A stretch of 64,000 nucleotides of DNA, taken from Antarcticibacterium flavum. GTDB taxonomy: Bacteria > Bacteroidota > Bacteroidia > Flavobacteriales > Flavobacteriaceae. The notes beneath the pieces are model-generated. The model was not told the origin of the DNA. It saw nothing but the letters and a program-made list of their open reading frames with translations, and did no database searches. Position numbers and translations under genes: made by a program. Of this stretch, positions 4,234 to 12,526 are shown piece after piece; the stretch's first letter is position 1, and each line of letters opens with the position of its first letter. The stretch spans positions 372,001 through 436,000 of the forward strand of contig NZ_CP040812.1 in the NCBI RefSeq assembly GCF_006159205.1, in the 5' to 3' direction.

Positions 4234-5283
4234 CTATTCCAATTCTTTTAAAGCCTGCAAAAGTTCTTTGTTTTCTTTGGCTGTTCCTATCGTAATTCTC
4301 AATGTGTTTTCACACAAAGGCTCTTTGGTCCTGTTTCTTATAACTATATTCTTTTCCAGAAGCTGCTCATATCTCTTCCCGGCATCATCTACTAGAATAA
4401 GGAAGAAATTAGCATCAGAGGGATATACTTTACTAATATAATTCACTTCAAGTAAAGCTTCAAATAACCCTTTCCTTTCATCCAGTATTCCAGATACCTC
4501 GCTGTCAACATCCTCTTTGTGCTGAAGTCGTTCCAGAGCCCTTTGCTGGGTGAGCTCATTTACATTGTAGGGTGGTTTTATTCTGTTGAGGATCCTGATT
4601 ATTTCTTCTGAAGCATAGCAAATTCCCAACCTTATACCTGCCATCCCATATGCTTTTGAGAGAGTTTGGGTGATCACCAAATTAGGAAAATCCTCCAGCC
4701 TTTTGATCCAGCTCTCCTTTTCTGAAAAATCTATATATGCCTCATCAATGACTACGAGTCCGCTAAAATTTTCAAGGATCTCCAGCACATTTGCTTCTGA
4801 AAAAGAATTACCGGTGGGATTGTTCGGCGAGCAAAGAAAGATCATTTTTGTAGCTTCATCAATTTTTTTCAAAATCTGCTTTACATCGGGTTCAAAAGCT
4901 GTAGTTAGCAACACCTCCCTGTTCTCAATATTATTGATCCCTGCCAGAACTTTATACATTCCATAGGTAGGTGGCAAAGTGATCACATTGTCCTTCCCCG
5001 GCTCACAGAAAGCACGAAACAACAGGTCCAGCACTTCATCACTTCCATTCCCTAAAAGAATACAGTGACGGTGTACTCCTTTTATTGCTGAAAGTTCTTC
5101 CTTCAGGTCCCGTTGCTGCGGATCGGGATACCGGTTAACATCTGTTTCAAAAGGGTTCTCATTGGCATCGAGAAAGATCATAGAATTTCCCGTAGATTGA
5201 AATTCATCCCTGGCTGAAGAGTACGGGCTTATATTCCGAATGTTCTCCCTTGTAAGATTATCTAAATTAAATTTATTTGTCAT
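4234..5283 (-). CDS. hisC: Histidinol-phosphate aminotransferase HisC
   Basis: PLP-dependent fold-type I aminotransferase that converts imidazole acetol phosphate to histidinol phosphate (step 7). Lys210 in TQTLSKAYGMAG is the expected Schiff-base lysine. CSPNNPTGN (about 151-159) and VVIDEAYIDF (about 177-186) are the canonical cofactor and substrate motifs. Its 349-residue length is normal. It sits between hisD (57 bp upstream) and hisB (3 bp downstream). Confidence 0.96.
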   Translation of the reverse strand: MTNKFNLDNLTRENIRNISPYSSARDEFQSTGNSMIFLDANENPFETDVNRYPDPQQRDLKEELSAIKGVHRHCILLGNGSDEVLDLLFRAFCEPGKDNVITLPPTYGMYKVLAGINNIENREVLLTTAFEPDVKQILKKIDEATKMIFLCSPNNPTGNSFSEANVLEILENFSGLVVIDEAYIDFSEKESWIKRLEDFPNLVITQTLSKAYGMAGIRLGICYASEEIIRILNRIKPPYNVNELTQQRALERLQHKEDVDSEVSGILDERKGLFEALLEVNYISKVYPSDANFFLILVDDAGKRYEQLLEKNIVIRNRTKEPLCENTLRITIGTAKENKELLQALKELE

Positions 5284-5340
5284 TTTGCTTAATGAACGAT
5301 AAGGGAGAACTTCAATTGATCACTCCCGCTTTTGTGGTTA

Positions 5341-6630
5341 TTATTTCTTTTCGATCTCCTGTAATCTAAGGCTTACAGCGTTTTTATGTGCCTGTAAACC
5401 TTCAGCCTCTGCCATACGTTCAATAGATGGGCCTATAGTGGACATACCCTCCTCAGTAATTTTTTGAAAGGTCATACTTTTAAGAAAGCTGTCGAGATTT
5501 ACACCGCTGTATTGTTTTGCATACCCATTGGTTGGCAAAGTGTGATTGGTTCCAGAAGCATAATCTCCCGCACTCTCCGGGGTGAAATTCCCAATGAATA
5601 CAGATCCTGCATTCATAATACCATCTACATAGAATTCTTCATTGGCAGTGCAAATTATAAAATGCTCCGGCCCGTATTCGTTTATGAGGTCCAAAGCTTG
5701 GCGGTCATTCTCCACATATATCAACCTGGAATTATCGATTGCCCTGGTGGCGATCTCTTTCCTCGGTAATTCCTGCAGCTGCTGTTCAACCTCCTGCTCT
5801 ACGGCCTCTATAAGGGCTTTTGAAGTAGAAACAAGAATTACCTGGCTATCACCCCCATGTTCTGCCTGGCTAAGCAAATCGGACGCTACAAAGGCTGCAT
5901 TTGCAGTATCATCTGCCACCACCAGTAATTCTGAGGGCCCAGCAGGCATGTCGATAGAAACATTGTACCGGGTAGCCAATTGTTTTGCAACAGTCACGAA
6001 CTGGTTACCGGGCCCAAAGATCTTGTATACCGCGGGGACAGTCTCAGTTCCAAAGGCCATAGCTCCAATGGCCTGGATCCCACCAATTTTGAAAATACTT
6101 GTTACTCCACATAAAGCCGCCGTATAAAGGATTGCCGGATTAATATTCCCTTCCTTATCTGGCGGGGTACAAAGGATGATCTCCTTGCAACCTGCGAGAT
6201 TTGCAGGCGTAGCCAGCATTAAAATAGTGGAAAATAAGGGTGCGGAACCGCCGGGGATATATAGACCTACTTTTTGAATTGGCCTCTTTTCCTGCCAGCA
6301 ATTCACCCCTTTTGAGGTGGTAACTTCCACTTTTCCGGTTTGCTGTGCGGCGTGGAATTTTTCTATATTGTCTTTAGCCAGTTGTATGGCATCTTTAAGT
6401 TCCCTCGAAACCCCGGCAGCAGCTTCCTCTATCTCTGCTTCAGAAACTTTAAGCTTTTCAAAGGATACCCCGTCAAATAGGCGGGTGTATTTTTTAATAG
6501 CGATATCTCCCTTGGACTGGATCTCTGCAAAAACCTCCTTCACGGTCGCTTCGATGTCCTCCACTGTTTGAGTAGGCCTTTGGAGGAGACTTGACCATTC
6601 TTCCCTGGTAGGATTATAAATTTTATTCAT
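5341..6630 (-). CDS. hisD: Histidinol dehydrogenase HisD
   Basis: Zinc- and NAD-dependent enzyme that oxidises histidinol to histidine in two steps, the last of the pathway. Its 429 residues match the family. Visible motifs are GLYIPGG, GGIQAIGAMAFGTE, the GPSELLVVADD loop, AEHGGDSQ (zinc ligand region) and YGPEHFII with the catalytic Glu-His pair. It lies 31 bp downstream of hisG, as the second cistron of the operon. Confidence 0.97.
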   Translation of the reverse strand: MNKIYNPTREEWSSLLQRPTQTVEDIEATVKEVFAEIQSKGDIAIKKYTRLFDGVSFEKLKVSEAEIEEAAAGVSRELKDAIQLAKDNIEKFHAAQQTGKVEVTTSKGVNCWQEKRPIQKVGLYIPGGSAPLFSTILMLATPANLAGCKEIILCTPPDKEGNINPAILYTAALCGVTSIFKIGGIQAIGAMAFGTETVPAVYKIFGPGNQFVTVAKQLATRYNVSIDMPAGPSELLVVADDTANAAFVASDLLSQAEHGGDSQVILVSTSKALIEAVEQEVEQQLQELPRKEIATRAIDNSRLIYVENDRQALDLINEYGPEHFIICTANEEFYVDGIMNAGSVFIGNFTPESAGDYASGTNHTLPTNGYAKQYSGVNLDSFLKSMTFQKITEEGMSTIGPSIERMAEAEGLQAHKNAVSLRLQEIEKK

Positions 6631-6661
6631 GAGAATTTGATTATTTCTATGTTTCTTCAGC

Positions 6662-7525
6662 TTAGATCACCATTTTTTCGATTGGCACCACCAGTATTCC
6701 CTCTGCCCCTGTTTCTTTAAGCTGGTCTATAACCTCCCAGAAACGCTCTTCATTTATAACAGTGTGAACAGAACTCCATCCTTTTTCAGCTAAAGGAAGT
6801 ATTGTTGGGCTGCGCATCCCTGGTAATAATTTTGTAATAGCTTCGATCTTATCATTGGGAGCATTCAGCAGTATATACTTGGAGGTCCTGGCATTAAGAA
6901 CAGATTTTAACCTGAACTGGAGTTTTTCAAGTATTACCTGTCGCTCTTCAGTAATCTTAGGGGAAATTGCGAGGATAGCCTCACTTTTAAGCATTACTTC
7001 CACTTCCTTAAGGTTGTTCTTAAACAAAGTACTCCCACTGGACACTATATCACAAATAGCATCTGCCAGGCCTATATTTGGAGCAATCTCTACAGAACCA
7101 TTAATAATATGCAGGTCTGCCTGTATTCCATTTTCTTTTAAAAATGCATTGACCGTATTAGGATAGGAAGTGGCGATCTTTTTTCCATCCAAATCCTGGA
7201 TCCCGTTGTATTTTACTGATTTGGGCACTGCCATTGAAACACGGCATTTTGAAAATCCCAATTTTTCGCCGCGAATAATGTCCTCTCCTTTTTCCACCAA
7301 AACATTTTCACCCAGGATGGCAATGTCAACCACTCCATCCCGAAGATATTGGGGGATGTCTCCATTCCTTAAATATAAAACTTCCAGGGGGAAATTGCGC
7401 GAAACGGCCTTTAATTGTTCTTTCCCGTTATCAATGGAGATTCCGGCTTCTTTTAGGATCTTCAGGGAATCTTCATTAAGCCTTCCGCTCTTTTGAATTG
7501 CGATACGTAATTTTTGATTGCTCAT
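6662..7525 (-). CDS. hisG: ATP phosphoribosyltransferase HisG, long form
   Basis: First committed enzyme of histidine synthesis; joins ATP and PRPP. I choose the ATG at 7525 (MSNQKLRIAIQKSGRL, 287 residues) over an in-frame ATG 21 bp upstream, because family members begin at this point. The signature NGSVEIAPNIGLAD-DIVSSGSTL is present. Residues from about 210 onward form the C-terminal regulatory domain of the long, HisZ-independent form, which is normally feedback-inhibited by histidine. It is the first structural gene, directly downstream of the attenuator terminator. Confidence 0.96.
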   Translation of the reverse strand: MSNQKLRIAIQKSGRLNEDSLKILKEAGISIDNGKEQLKAVSRNFPLEVLYLRNGDIPQYLRDGVVDIAILGENVLVEKGEDIIRGEKLGFSKCRVSMAVPKSVKYNGIQDLDGKKIATSYPNTVNAFLKENGIQADLHIINGSVEIAPNIGLADAICDIVSSGSTLFKNNLKEVEVMLKSEAILAISPKITEERQVILEKLQFRLKSVLNARTSKYILLNAPNDKIEAITKLLPGMRSPTILPLAEKGWSSVHTVINEERFWEVIDQLKETGAEGILVVPIEKMVI

Positions 7526-7570
7526 TTTTGTTCTTGTAAGTCTCACGGGATTAACCGGGAAATTAATAAA

Positions 7571-7604
7571 TAAAAAAACCCGTTCGATTGCTCAAACGGG
7601 TTTT
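7571..7604 (-). terminator. Attenuator terminator of the his operon
   Basis: In the his transcript, AAACCCGTT and AACGGGTTT pair (9 bp) around a 10-nt loop and are followed at once by a U-rich run. It lies after the leader peptide stop and about 45 bp before hisG, where readthrough must occur for the operon to be expressed. Confidence 0.85.
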
Positions 7605-7645
7605 AAATATGAATTAACTACATATCAAATTTACCTCGCCTGAGC
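7590..7645 (-). promoter_or_regulatory. Predicted antiterminator pairing of the his attenuator
   Basis: Transcript segment GCUCAGGCGAGG (7645-7634, the last four leader codons) can pair with CCCGUUUGAGC (7600-7590), the 5' arm and loop of the terminator. This gives 11 base pairs with one bulged A and two G-U pairs. The two structures exclude each other. The left arm begins 12 nt after the last His codon. A ribosome stalled at His codons would leave it free, while one that reaches the stop codon would cover it. Confidence 0.7.
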
Positions 7646-7687
7646 GCAGTAGTAAAAATGATGGTGATGTAGTTGTATTGTTCTCAT
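7631..7687 (-). CDS. hisL: his operon leader peptide
   Basis: An 18-codon frame encodes MRTIQLHHHHFYYCAQAR. Four consecutive histidine codons (CAT CAC CAT CAT, codons 7-10) are the mark of a ribosome-stalling sensor of charged tRNA-His. The stop codon is followed by 26 nt and then the intrinsic terminator before hisG. The peptide has no product role; its translation rate sets the folding of the RNA. The gene is too short for ordinary gene finders. It is supported by codon content, position and the mutually exclusive RNA structures, not by experiment. Confidence 0.88.
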   Translation of the reverse strand: MRTIQLHHHHFYYCAQAR

Positions 7688-7695
7688 TGTTGATG

Positions 7696-7703
7696 CAAAT
7701 CTA
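7696..7703 (-). promoter_or_regulatory. Putative -7 box of the his promoter
   Basis: TAGATTTG on the minus strand fits the Bacteroidota TAnnTTTG -7 element. It ends 8 nt before the leader ATG, so the leader mRNA would have almost no 5' UTR. No good -33 TTTG element was found, so this is tentative. Confidence 0.45.
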
Positions 7704-7756
7704 AATTAAATTTTTAAAAATAAAACTTCTTTTTAAAAATTTATGACTTGTTTAGT

Positions 7757-8572
7757 TTAGTTATTACCCAGGATAAGCGGCATTCCACCATCACCACCAC
7801 CAATTACAACAACTTTGGCATTAGGTGATCTTGCAAGTTCAACCGTCGCCTGGATACCTTTTTCCTTAAGGATCTGGTCATTAAGGGAAGCACTAAGGAT
7901 CTGGTTTGCACGAGCCTTACCTTCAGCATCTATACGTTGTCTTTCTGCCTCCTGTTCTGCCTTTTCAAGACGGAAAACATACTCAAGTGATTCCTGCTCC
8001 TGTCCAAGTTTCCTTTCAATAGCGTCCTTTATAGATTTTGGAAGGGATACATCCCTTACTAAGACTTCATTTATTTGAACGTATTGATTGGCAAGTAAGA
8101 TTTGAGTTTCTTCAAAGATCTCTCTTTGGATAGCTTCTCTCTTGCTTGCATAGAGTTGCTCGGGGATATAACGGCCTACCACACTACGTGCAGCACTGCG
8201 AATAGCCGGTTGTAATACTCTTTGAACATAGGCTTCTCCCCTTTCCTGGTGCAGCTTTCCTAAATTGTCATAGGTAGGCTGGAACCAAACTGTAGCATCC
8301 AGGTTGATCTCCAAACCGTTGGAAGAAAGAACCTGCATTTTTTCATCAAGAGATTGCTGTCTTACTTCATATACAAAAACCCTGTTCCATGGGGCCACCA
8401 GGTGAAAACCTTCACTTAATGGCGGCTCATCTGTTACAACCCCACCTCCAAATGTTTTGTAAAGCACCCCGGCTTCTCCGGAGTTAATAGTAACTGTCGA
8501 TTTCGCGATAATGATAATTAAGACCACTACAGCAAATAAAATTGGTAAACCAATCTTGGGTAATCTATCCAT
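7757..8572 (-). CDS. Prohibitin-like SPFH/Band 7 membrane protein
   Basis: 271 residues with one N-terminal membrane segment (about 8-27), then an SPFH domain (about 30-200) and a charged coiled-coil (about 195-245) of the EKAEQEAERQRIDAEGKARA kind. The C-terminus is glycine-rich (VVIGGGDGGMP). Such proteins assemble into large membrane rings or microdomains and in bacteria are linked to membrane order and protease control. The pattern is closer to prohibitin than to HflC or HflK. It lies 20 bp downstream of the VWA protein, so the two probably share a transcript. Confidence 0.88.
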   Translation of the reverse strand: MDRLPKIGLPILFAVVVLIIIIAKSTVTINSGEAGVLYKTFGGGVVTDEPPLSEGFHLVAPWNRVFVYEVRQQSLDEKMQVLSSNGLEINLDATVWFQPTYDNLGKLHQERGEAYVQRVLQPAIRSAARSVVGRYIPEQLYASKREAIQREIFEETQILLANQYVQINEVLVRDVSLPKSIKDAIERKLGQEQESLEYVFRLEKAEQEAERQRIDAEGKARANQILSASLNDQILKEKGIQATVELARSPNAKVVVIGGGDGGMPLILGNN

Positions 8573-8592
8573 AAATTAAAAATTGAAATTAA

Positions 8593-10635
8593 TTAAATTA
8601 AACCGAAATATTTCCGGGTAAACCACTCTGCACTTAAGCTTAGTATGAGGAGGATCAACAAAAATTTCCAGCTTATCAAAGGTACTGCTTTTTCACGGCT
8701 TTTCTGCACTGGCAGGTAACGATTATCCTCCAGCAGCTCTGTGATCAAAGCCCTGTAATTATCCAGGTAATAAAGATCACTTCCCGCGGTCCCGGCAAAG
8801 GTCCTAAGTTTTGAAATATTGGCTGCCCCAAACTGCTCTTCGACATTATATGCGATCACAGTAAAATTGCCGCCCCTGCTAATACCTGAGGTCATTTCCT
8901 GCACCTCAAATTCATATTCGCCGGGTGCAAGATCATCAACACGAAATGTGAACCTGTTGTTATTAAGAAGCATTTGAGACTCCAGCTCCTCCTGGCTTGT
9001 GACATTCCTTAATTGTATCTCCAGTTGCCCACCGGGGTTGAACTCGTAGTTTTCATCAAAATATCGGGCGGTTACAAGTACCTCTTCATTCTCTGCATAA
9101 AAATTACCCGCATCTATTGTCAACCGCTCGCGCCTTTGGGTAGAGGAAAGATATTGAACCAGCTTACCAAAGAAATTATCGAAATCTTCAAAACTTCCAC
9201 TATCAGCATATGATTGGGACCTCCACCTCCAAATATTTTCCCCAAAAAGGGTGGCATATCTTGAACTATTCTCCTCCAATGTTGCAAGTAGAGGTGTGGT
9301 AGTGGACACCCCTTCAATTTGCTGATATAACAATACACTTTGATTGGCATTCTCAAACTCAATATTTCCAAAGACATCCTGTAAAGGCGGAAGAGATTTA
9401 AAGCCTATATCTTCGAACTGGAAACGGGAATAATTAGCATTATATACTGGTAAATAATCCTGGGATTGGGTGGTAAAATCCTTCCCGAATGGCATCACCG
9501 AGGCAATAAAATTCCAGTCTGTTTTTGTTCCTGTTATTAAAAAATAGTTGATGCCCTGTTCTCTTAGTCGGGAAATAATACGGTTAAAGTTATTGTTTGG
9601 CTGATATAGGACAACAAGTTGAAAATCATTAATATCCACATTGTCAACATCTTTAATATTGATAATCTCTGCCTGTCTTTGCTCATTGGCTTCTATAGAC
9701 TTTTTTACCGCGCCGAGATCGGGATGAAGAATGGAAGTGAGGATAAGGACAGAGGTTCGTTCATCTATAACTTCCACCCCAAAACTACGAGTGTTATTAG
9801 CAGTATTTTTTTCTGAATCAAGGGGAGTGATTTCTGCCTCATAAACTTTTAACCCCAGGGATGATGCAGGTAAGGTAGTTGTTATTACCTCAGAGGTGTT
9901 TTCTGCTGAAAAATTTACCTGCTGGCTGAACAGCACTGTTTCTCCCAGTTTTATCTTCATGCTTGAAGTTACAGCTTCGCTTCCCGTATAACTAAGAATG
10001 ATCTCTACCGGAAATCTGTTATTTAGAAATGCATACCGGTTTACATTAAGATTATTGATAGCAAGATCAACTCTTGCTGTGGTATCCCCGGCAACCAGGG
10101 GAAAGAGATCAACCCGTGGACCCGGCCTGTAATACTGGTAATCCTCCCCTATGGTTTGATTTCCATCTGTCACCATAACTACTGCTGCTCTTTGGGAGGA
10201 TCTTAATTTTTCGAGTTGATCCAGGGCAACTCTAATATTTGTTTGGTTTTCATTAAATTCCATAGAATCCTGCTGCAGGGAAACTAAGGACCGTCCAAAT
10301 CCAAATTCCCTGATATCAAATTTGTCACGAAGCTCGCCGTTACCTCTCAATTCTTCTGCCAGAGCTATTACCTCTTCTTTCGTTTCCAGGTATTTCATAG
10401 ATCCAGAGAGGTCGTAAGCAAGGAACAGCTGTTGTTTCTCGAGCTCATATTCCTTTTGTTTTATCTCTGGATTGATGAGTAACAGTAGCAGGACAAAAAC
10501 GCTAATAAACCTCAAGCCAGCCAGCAGGTATGTCCTCGTGCTCCTATCCCGCGACCCTAGGAAATATTTAAAAAAAACAAACCCCAGCGCAAAGATTGCT
10601 GCCAGGGTTATTAAAATTATAGTTGTATTAGACAT
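8593..10635 (-). CDS. VWA-domain-containing membrane protein
   Basis: 680 residues. Two N-terminal membrane helices (about 5-27 and 37-59) and one near the C-terminus (about 653-672) frame a large extracytoplasmic or cytoplasmic region. A von Willebrand A domain starts near residue 70 with the MIDAS motif DLSGS (AYDLSGSMKY); the matching ASSQRAAVVMVTDGNQT lies near 150. The rest is beta-rich, resembling adhesion or BatA/BatB-like proteins, but the partner is unknown. It lies upstream of the prohibitin-like gene with a 20-bp gap. A 136-bp spacer without recognised signals separates it from fabG. Confidence 0.85.
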   Translation of the reverse strand: MSNTTIILITLAAIFALGFVFFKYFLGSRDRSTRTYLLAGLRFISVFVLLLLLINPEIKQKEYELEKQQLFLAYDLSGSMKYLETKEEVIALAEELRGNGELRDKFDIREFGFGRSLVSLQQDSMEFNENQTNIRVALDQLEKLRSSQRAAVVMVTDGNQTIGEDYQYYRPGPRVDLFPLVAGDTTARVDLAINNLNVNRYAFLNNRFPVEIILSYTGSEAVTSSMKIKLGETVLFSQQVNFSAENTSEVITTTLPASSLGLKVYEAEITPLDSEKNTANNTRSFGVEVIDERTSVLILTSILHPDLGAVKKSIEANEQRQAEIINIKDVDNVDINDFQLVVLYQPNNNFNRIISRLREQGINYFLITGTKTDWNFIASVMPFGKDFTTQSQDYLPVYNANYSRFQFEDIGFKSLPPLQDVFGNIEFENANQSVLLYQQIEGVSTTTPLLATLEENSSRYATLFGENIWRWRSQSYADSGSFEDFDNFFGKLVQYLSSTQRRERLTIDAGNFYAENEEVLVTARYFDENYEFNPGGQLEIQLRNVTSQEELESQMLLNNNRFTFRVDDLAPGEYEFEVQEMTSGISRGGNFTVIAYNVEEQFGAANISKLRTFAGTAGSDLYYLDNYRALITELLEDNRYLPVQKSREKAVPLISWKFLLILLILSLSAEWFTRKYFGLI

Positions 10636-10771
10636 TAACTGGATTGGTGTTGTAATATATAAACCCTGGTCGACTACTATAGACTAACAGAGTTTTAATT
10701 TACTAAAATACAAAAACAACTACCAATTATTTCTTACGGGTTTAATCAATGTTTGTGGGTTTGATGTTATC

Positions 10772-11518
10772 CTATGTAAGCATTCCCCCATTAACCTGTA
10801 ATACCTGCCCGGTAACATAACTGCTAAGATCACTACCAAGAAAAACACAGGCATTTGCAATATCCTCGGGCGTACCACCTCTTTTTAATGGAATGGATTC
10901 TCTCCAACCCTCAACGGTTTTCTCATCCAGCTTTCCTGTCATTTCGGTCTCAATAAAACCAGGTGCTATAACATTGGTACGAATATTTCGGGAACCCAGT
11001 TCAAGCGCCATAGATTTTGAAAAACCAATAATTCCTGCCTTGGAAGCTGCATAATTTGACTGACCTGCATTTCCTTTAACCCCAACAACAGAACTCATAT
11101 TTATAATACTCCCATTACGTTGTTTAAGCATAGTACGCTGCACCGCCTTGGTCATATTAAAAACAGATTTAAGATTCACTTCGATCACCTGGTCAAAGTC
11201 CTCCTCGCTCATACGCATAAGCAGGTTATCTTTGGTGATCCCGGCATTATTGATGAGTATATCTATTGAGCCAAAATCGGCAGCTACATTTTTGATCAAT
11301 TCTTCACATTCTGAAAAATTGGCTGCATTGGACTTGTATCCTTTGGCTTTAATTCCTGTTTTAGACAATTGCTCCTCCAGTTCGTTGGCTGCATTTACAG
11401 AAGAGGCATAGGTGAATGCTACATTTGCTCCGTGCTTAGCAAAAACTTCAGCAATTCCTTTTCCTATCCCCCGGCTTCCTCCGGTAATAATGGCATTTTT
11501 TCCTTCCAGTAATTTCAT
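10772..11518 (-). CDS. fabG: 3-oxoacyl-[acyl-carrier-protein] reductase FabG
   Basis: Short-chain dehydrogenase that reduces 3-oxoacyl-ACP with NADPH in fatty acid elongation. The cofactor loop GGSRGIG is at about 14-20, NNAG near 90, and the catalytic Ser142/143-Tyr156-Lys160 set lies in MSSVVG and YAASK. The C-terminus VTGQVLQVNGGMLT is typical of FabG. Its 248 residues are the standard length. It has its own likely promoter (11548-11555) after the sucD terminator. Confidence 0.95.
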   Translation of the reverse strand: MKLLEGKNAIITGGSRGIGKGIAEVFAKHGANVAFTYASSVNAANELEEQLSKTGIKAKGYKSNAANFSECEELIKNVAADFGSIDILINNAGITKDNLLMRMSEEDFDQVIEVNLKSVFNMTKAVQRTMLKQRNGSIINMSSVVGVKGNAGQSNYAASKAGIIGFSKSMALELGSRNIRTNVIAPGFIETEMTGKLDEKTVEGWRESIPLKRGGTPEDIANACVFLGSDLSSYVTGQVLQVNGGMLT

Positions 11519-11547
11519 ATCTAGATGATTTTATTTTTAAAACGTAT

Positions 11548-11555
11548 CAAATATA
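11548..11555 (-). promoter_or_regulatory. Putative -7 box for fabG
   Basis: TATATTTG on the minus strand, 29 nt before the fabG ATG and just downstream of the sucD terminator hairpin. It matches TAnnTTTG; a correctly spaced -33 box is not evident. Confidence 0.4.
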
Positions 11556-11577
11556 ACAAAAGCCAAAGGCTTTAAAT

Positions 11578-11627
11578 TAAAAAATCTTCCTGAATTCACC
11601 TGTTTTTAGATGTTTTCAGGAAGATCT
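11578..11627 (-). terminator. Terminator of the sucD transcript
   Basis: ATCTTCCTGAA (11584-11594) pairs perfectly with TTCAGGAAGAT (11615-11625) around a 20-nt loop. On the minus strand it is followed by six T residues. It lies 24 bp after the sucD stop. Confidence 0.75.
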
Positions 11628-11650
11628 TTCAAAATCTTATCGTGTTTTGC

Positions 11651-12526
11651 CTAGCCTTTTAAAACTTCAGCAACTTTCTTTCCAATTTCAGCAGGGGAAT
11701 CAACCACGTGAATTCCATTTTCCCTTAAAATTGCCTTTTTAGCCTGGGCAGTGTCTTCGCTTCCACCTACAATAGCTCCTGCGTGACCCATTGTACGGCC
11801 TGCGGGTGCAGTTTCACCTGCGATAAATCCTACTACAGGCTTCCGGTTTCCATTTGCTTTGATCCACTGGGCAGCGTCTGCCTCCAGTTGGCCACCAATT
11901 TCACCTATCATCACTATGATCTCTGTCTCGTCGTCATTCATCAAAAGTTCTACTGCTTCCTTTGTAGTAGTTCCAATAATAGGATCTCCTCCAATACCTA
12001 TAGCAGTAGTTATACCAAGACCTTGCTTCACAACCTGATCTGCAGCTTCGTAAGTAAGGGTTCCAGATTTTGAAACGATCCCAACTTTTCCTTTTTTGAA
12101 AACGAAGCCCGGCATAATTCCAACCTTCGCCTCTCCCGGAGTTATTACTCCAGGACAGTTAGGGCCTATAAGTCGGCAATTTTTATTTTGGATGTAGTTG
12201 TATACCTTGATCATATCTGCAACAGGAATACCTTCAGTAATGGTGATAATAACACCTATTCCAGCATCTGCCGCTTCCATAATAGCATCGGCCGCAAATG
12301 CCGGTGGAACAAAGATGATGGAAACATCGGCTCCGGTTTCTTTAACAGCTTCAGAAACTGTATTAAAAACTGGTTTGTCCAGGTGTGTTTGCCCTCCTTT
12401 ACCGGGAGTAACACCACCCACCACATTGGTTCCATATTCTATCATTTGTTCTGCATGAAAAGTACCTTCACTTCCGGTAAATCCCTGCACAATAATTTTT
12501 GAATCCTTATTGACTAAAACACTCAT
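11651..12526 (-). CDS. sucD: Succinate-CoA ligase alpha subunit SucD
   Basis: Alpha subunit of succinyl-CoA synthetase in the TCA cycle; it binds CoA and carries the phosphohistidine. The CoA-binding start [17 protein letters not shown] is intact, and His248 in [10 protein letters not shown] is the expected phosphorylated residue. Its 291 residues are standard. sucC is not nearby, which is common in this phylum. It is transcribed in the same direction as the lipid A genes, with 60 bp from the NTF2-like gene. Confidence 0.96.

Follow-up and report, generated by a model that had tools for sequence, protein, structure and literature searches.

The his operons of Escherichia coli and Salmonella are preceded by the hisL attenuator, in which a leader peptide with a run of His codons is followed by a terminator before hisG and by a competing antiterminator, the His codons themselves lying inside a hairpin. 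Lopatovskaya et al. (2010) reportedly may contain related predictions. We describe here an element of this kind in a 64,000-nucleotide stretch of the Antarcticibacterium flavum genome (the window) and in its relatives across the phylum.

The 2021 transcriptome study of F. psychrophilum (PMC9723704) mentions, in its available text, a structured 5′ element upstream of hisG that is common to other Flavobacteriaceae genera, along with hints of leader-peptide attenuation ahead of amino-acid operons. With the same gene in the same family, that element is very probably the same as the one described here. A first-pass annotation of the window had called such switches little described in this phylum, which overstated the case: since the study names a structured 5′ hisG element in Flavobacteriaceae genera, at least in the text available, the element is not undescribed. 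The same text is silent on the leader sequence, the helices, covariation and counts across the phylum, all of which are given below, and the detailed anatomy and phylum-wide spread of the hisG element were not found in the literature searched. The existence of the element is already known; it is a his attenuator of a known type, present at nearly every locus examined, for which we provide a sequence-level model of leader-peptide attenuation across the phylum. According to the available part of PMC9723704, flavobacteria do without Shine-Dalgarno sequences, so that the coupling of leader translation to transcription becomes directly testable in this phylum.

Promoter and His-rich leader

The elements of the locus are listed in Table 1. 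Downstream of hisG follow hisD, hisC and hisB (Pfam Histidinol_dh, Aminotran_1_2 and IGPD) and, after hisB, open reading frames that by eye resemble hisH, hisA and hisF. Upstream of the leader a Band_7 gene, on the minus strand as well, ends at 7757; between it and hisG the -7 box, the leader and the terminator succeed one another in this order. The leader-terminator RNA of the window has a folding energy of -35.8 kcal/mol (z = -6.4), which 0 of 200 shuffles equal. The closest named hisG genes are 86–87% identical to that of the window, which places its genome within the Flavobacteriaceae, close to the named genera listed below. As a side observation, the tip of the terminator, UGAGCAAUC (7594–7586, minus strand), equals the hisG start, AUGAGCAAUC (7524–7516), over 9 nt, possibly by chance.

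Table 1. Elements of the his leader region in the window.
Feature	Position	Strand	Basis or remark
hisG, first gene of the operon	6662..7525	-	Pfam HisG and HisG_C; start 7525
Intrinsic terminator, GCAA loop and U run	7572..7604	-	122/142 leader-bearing loci; covariation
Segment C, CCCGUUUGAGC, terminator 5′ arm and first loop bases	7590..7600	-	common to antiterminator and terminator
Helix P1, 3′ strand AUGUAGUU, after leader stop	7616..7623	-	fold; leader:post-stop pairing test
Leader peptide ORF, MRTIQLHHHHFYYCAQAR*	7631..7687	-	ATG 7687 to TAA 7631, 18 codons
Antiterminator left arm B, last four leader codons, GCUCAGGCGAGG	7634..7645	-	pairing and conservation
Four consecutive His codons, proposed sensing site	7658..7669	-	sequence; His-rich leader in 142/157 loci
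Helix P1, 5′ strand AACUACAU, overlaps first His codon	7667..7674	-	fold; leader:post-stop pairing test
Bacteroidota -7 promoter box, TAGATTTG (consensus TAnnTTTG)	7696..7703	-	8 nt before leader ATG

hisG was found in 29 of 40 genomes, the window's own counted, and, across the phylum, in 325 out of 392. The comparison was made on 157 loci, namely L001–L158 minus L030, and includes 100 added stretches (47 from kin at class level, 6 at order, 14 at family and 33 at phylum level); the remaining hisG matches, phylum-level or beyond the matches listed, were left out. L030 comes from the genome of L008, and the hisG of this relative is split over the two frames (L008 and L030) by a frameshift or an assembly error. 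L126 (genome G190), which is phylum-level kin, is counted outside the order.

A His-rich leader, defined as an ATG-started frame of 8–45 codons with at least three His within six codons, precedes hisG at 142 of these 157 loci; the reverse strand has one at 3 of the 157, and dinucleotide shuffles give 4.2 per 157. The observation is real and far beyond chance. The leader occurs at 76 of 77 loci of the window's order and at 66 of 80 outside it; there are no His-rich leaders upstream of trpE or ilvD (0/29) and no Trp-rich leaders upstream of hisG (0/157). The 18-codon frame with its four successive His codons, which the first-pass annotation had read, is there on the minus strand, and across hisG upstream regions, whose alignment it had proposed, the His codons are conserved and terminator and antiterminator show two-sided changes that keep pairing. 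A set of 80 named loci (L232–L311; Zunongwangia, Salegentibacter, Gillisia, Christiangramia, Maribacter and others) has the leader at 78 loci and the terminator at all 78 of those; as several species occur in both sets, the two are not independent.

Fifteen loci lack a leader by this definition, one in the order (L041) and 14 outside. L041 retains the RNA, and its frame, translated by eye, reads MTFIQNYHRF with one His codon. By eye, L065 and L081 outside the order carry runs of His codons that lack an ATG start; in L098 and L103 such runs were sought by eye and none was seen. The frame shifts after HHHH in L007 and L014 and stops early in L002 and L004, while all four loci retain the GCGAGG end and most of B. 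This keeping of the RNA where the frame is lost argues against a functional peptide beyond the His codons.

The promoter box noted in the first-pass annotation 8 nt upstream of the leader ATG is present as well. An exact TAnnTTTG lies 7–9 nt before the leader ATG at all 16 loci of the window's genus, compared to 7 of 424 control positions. Within 45 nt upstream the box occurs in the order at 62 of the 76 loci with a leader (gaps of 6–36 nt) and outside it at 41 of 66 (gaps of 4–45 nt). In the available text of PMC9723704 the box sits at -12 to -5 relative to the transcript start, which would place the predicted start in the window at about 7691 and leave a 5′ UTR of about 4 nt. This predicted start, together with the conserved gap within the genus, supports the earlier suggestion of an almost leaderless transcript; the same source reports 5.5% leaderless mRNAs in F. 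psychrophilum. Since the gaps vary beyond the genus, the near-leaderless state is a feature of the lineage and not a requirement of the switch.

Terminator, antiterminator and helix P1

The terminator of the window has 13 pairs in total, including the 9-bp core CCCGUUUGA/UCGAACGGG with one G-U pair, and seven U; the 9-bp stem with a U-run ahead of hisG had thus been read correctly. By criterion a terminator follows the leader at 122 of 142 leader-bearing loci, in 119 of them with at least 8 pairs, compared to 3.1% of 710 shuffled segments (0.4% with at least 8 pairs). On 61 aligned sequences 97.0% of the cells are paired and nine are two-sided (0/500 shuffles). This alignment (A1) was drawn from 71 candidate sequences, of which L019, L023, L025, L026, L028, L029, L052 and L056 were dropped as too diverged or variant, and L125 and L126 for arbitrary ends.

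Among the 20 loci missing a terminator by criterion, L109, L125 and L126 have one by eye. The other 17 all lie outside the order: L086, L145, four of the eight loci of family f22 (L066, L070, L082 and L090), whose leaders end in HHFHHSS, and all 11 of family f17 (L059, L067, L069, L071, L073, L083, L088, L096, L097, L099 and L104). The f17 loci all have a His-rich leader, and in several of them the last His codons can, by eye, form a hairpin with the leader end. The his leaders of this family possibly have a different read-out.

In the window, B and C form 11 pairs with one bulged A and two G-U pairs. The first-pass annotation had described this competing pairing between the last four leader codons and the terminator's 5′ arm and loop, with a left arm that begins 12 nt after the last His codon, and both points agree with our reading. 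By its placement in the sequence the pairing is mutually exclusive with the terminator, and a stalled and a terminating ribosome would affect it differently. Over 122 loci the own B:C pairing has a mean energy of -14.7 kcal/mol; at 60 loci no more than 5% of dissimilar foreign C segments do equally well, and B beats shuffled B at p ≤ 0.05 at 77, with 45 falling short. On the 61 aligned sequences 86.8% of the B:C cells are paired and 14 are two-sided, a number that 0 of 500 shuffles reach. The number of cells paired is reached by 5 of 500 shuffles, the number of pairs with two-sided change by 88 and that of further pair types by 440, and because of these last two the column evidence is mixed. 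In three of the 11 pairs, between 14 and 28 of the 60 rows do not pair. Sliding the partner by 1–3 columns lowers pairing to 24–46%. The elements, their conservation and the two-sided, pairing-keeping changes in terminator and antiterminator are shown in silico.

The first-pass annotation took the switch for a minimal two-state one and missed a third helix, P1, which in the window's minimum-free-energy fold joins the stretch of His codons to the bases that follow the leader stop and extends into inner helices that enclose B. As the 3′ strand of P1 shifts between lineages, the helix was assessed by own and shuffled pairings instead of a column count. Its pairing is better than that of shuffled spacers at 58 of 74 order loci (p ≤ 0.05), at 30 of them with p ≤ 0.01. 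That only B:C and C:D matter and P1 is incidental is unlikely in our judgement. These two pairings would by themselves make a working switch, the His codons (CAU) readily pair with AUG-like spacers, the own P1 pairing is only modestly stronger than foreign ones (mean -11.1 vs. -9.0 kcal/mol), and 16 of 74 loci fail at p ≤ 0.05. Against this stand the window's own fold, the 58 loci just mentioned, and long P1 pairings that use different codons in L020, L022, L023, L037, L040 and L106. A conserved third helix that involves the His codons makes the switch more than a minimal two-state one.

Taken together, these sequence features are with high probability best explained by ribosome-mediated attenuation of his operon transcription, and the switch very probably lets the his genes be read only when histidine is short. 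The core of the first-pass annotation, control of the operon by a His-codon leader attenuator, is therefore kept as the best reading with conserved elements, and its qualifiers "minimal two-state" and "little described" are dropped. For the transcript start, ribosome stalling, folding order, termination and response to histidine we infer the following course. RNA polymerase would start a few nucleotides before the leader ATG, and a ribosome would begin to translate the 18 leader codons. When charged His-tRNA is sufficient, this ribosome would reach the stop codon and cover B, the terminator C:D would form, and the operon would be off. With too little charged His-tRNA the ribosome would stall on the His codons, P1 would open and B would be freed to pair with C, so that no terminator forms and hisG is transcribed. 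If the leader is left untranslated, P1 would hold B in its hairpin, the terminator would form and the operon would again be off; this last step makes the proposed design three-state and not two-state.

Two other accounts of the region find little room beside this attenuator. One could suppose that the terminator merely ends transcription of the upstream Band_7 gene and that the His-rich frame is fortuitous or encodes a small protein. The Band_7 gene does end on the same strand, at 7757, and a scan of 7201–8000 gave no second terminator-like site. However, throughout the phylum hisG is accompanied by leader, promoter box and antiterminator, and the RNA stays even where the end of the peptide is out of frame or cut short, so we give this account almost no credence. 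It is also very unlikely that the operon is mainly under other control, by a repressor or by an RNA that binds tRNA or a metabolite, with the leader adding little: nearly all relatives have the His run, and an Rfam scan of 5000–12000 at E ≤ 1 gave no riboswitch and no T-box. The same scan returned four weak leader or sRNA matches, all below gathering scores.

Element E between the terminator and hisG

In many relatives a stretch between the terminator and hisG, termed E, is complementary to the terminator tip, loop included. E is significant against shuffles (p ≤ 0.01) at 56 of 122 loci, of which 55 belong to the order and L105 lies outside it (L005, L006, L009, L010, L012–L018, L020–L028, L033, L037, L039, L042, L043, L045–L051, L053–L055, L057, L058, L105–L108 and L110–L124). 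Repeating the test on intervals of at least 18 nt left 55 significant among the 68 testable order loci and 1 among 21 elsewhere; E is found at 9 of 16 loci of the window's genus and at 48 of 75 testable loci of the named set. E is not significant in the window itself (p = 0.105; p = 0.917 for arm plus loop), nor in L002–L004, L007, L008 and L011 in the shuffle test. The own loop contributes to the pairing (-10.3 vs. -7.6 kcal/mol for foreign loops) and is the best at 30 of 74 loci. Of 102 E elements, 101 were recounted, and 54 of these end 12–15 nt before the hisG ATG. Complementary to the tip in most of the order relatives tested, E has no counterpart known to us from a literature searched with other aims.

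E is transcribed after the terminator and so cannot act on termination of the same transcript. We considered, as a tentative idea that is more probably wrong than right, that the Flavobacteriales his attenuator has a second layer, in which the terminator hairpin would block translation of hisG by pairing with E. With ample histidine, the hairpin of leaked read-through RNA, or of the released leader acting in trans, would pair with E; in starvation B would hold C and E would be free. If this were true, one leader would control both the transcription of its operon and the translation.

E may act on translation or in trans, and the folding calculations give this little support. In equilibrium folding of the E-bearing loci, when C is taken, openness rises from 0.50 to 0.55 at the hisG start and falls from 0.44 to 0.39 at E, and with a modelled ribosome at the stall or at the stop (57 E-bearing loci) the accessibility of the hisG start is 0.48 vs. 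0.46. A cis switch by full strand exchange is not supported by equilibrium folding without kissing loops: pairs between terminator tip and E dominate at only 5 of 102 E-bearing loci.

Three further readings of E were also set aside. E can base-pair with the start of hisG at 28 of 68 loci; in cis such pairing would have the opposite effect. As a conserved function this pairing was rejected, with arm-plus-loop complementarity at p ≤ 0.01 in 43 of 68 loci vs. start complementarity in 28; 27 of these 28 also have arm-plus-loop p ≤ 0.01 (the 28th, L047, has p 0.033), and E is still there in many Maribacter-like loci, where hisG starts with ATGACAAAA or similar. E as a direct duplicate of the terminator is not favoured, because only 22 of 68 loci, instead of 55, stay significant once the loop is replaced by its reverse complement; with the reversed terminator the number is 17 of 68. 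Finally, E does not appear to be a general attenuator feature: among 15 trpE loci (L186 left out) none reaches p ≤ 0.05, the lowest value being 0.06.

Comparison with known leaders

In the same lineage, trpE is preceded by a WWW leader in all 16 order genomes searched (L174–L189), including the window's own (L181, region G000:C1:3228219-3228656), and a terminator is matched in 15 of the 16. These trp leaders resemble the his leader in their short frame, the run of the sensed residue, the terminator and a -7 box 4–20 nt from the ATG. They differ from it in showing no complementary element after the terminator at p ≤ 0.05 in the 15 tested. Leader-peptide attenuation thus seems, from these sequences, to be general in the lineage. 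Upstream of ilvD, 5 of 13 loci have Ile/Leu/Val-rich frames, with no uniform leader; by eye, L163 and L170 carry short Ile/Val-rich frames followed by a terminator, e.g., MQISIIITSVVVVNVIHTSASGML. The ilvD of the window's genome (L171 and L173, G000:C1:1052462-1053414) is split over two frames, by a frameshift or an assembly error.

With hisL, the window shares the His-run leader, the terminator before hisG, the competing antiterminator and the inclusion of His codons in a hairpin. It differs in having four His codons vs. seven in E. coli, in an antiterminator arm made of the last four leader codons, in a predicted 5′ UTR of about 4 nt, and in lacking a match to the Rfam family His_leader, whose covariance model is not among the hits at E ≤ 1 in 5000–12000. 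The window element would thus work like a his leader, yet it stands outside this Rfam family.

As for E, the targets of the attenuator RNAs rnTrpL and Rli51 lie outside their operon, whereas E is in the same transcript as the terminator. Terminated attenuator RNAs with trans roles, as described in the available texts on rnTrpL of Sinorhizobium (PMC7298713) and Rli51 of Listeria (PMC11394854), set a precedent for leader RNAs that take on a further function.
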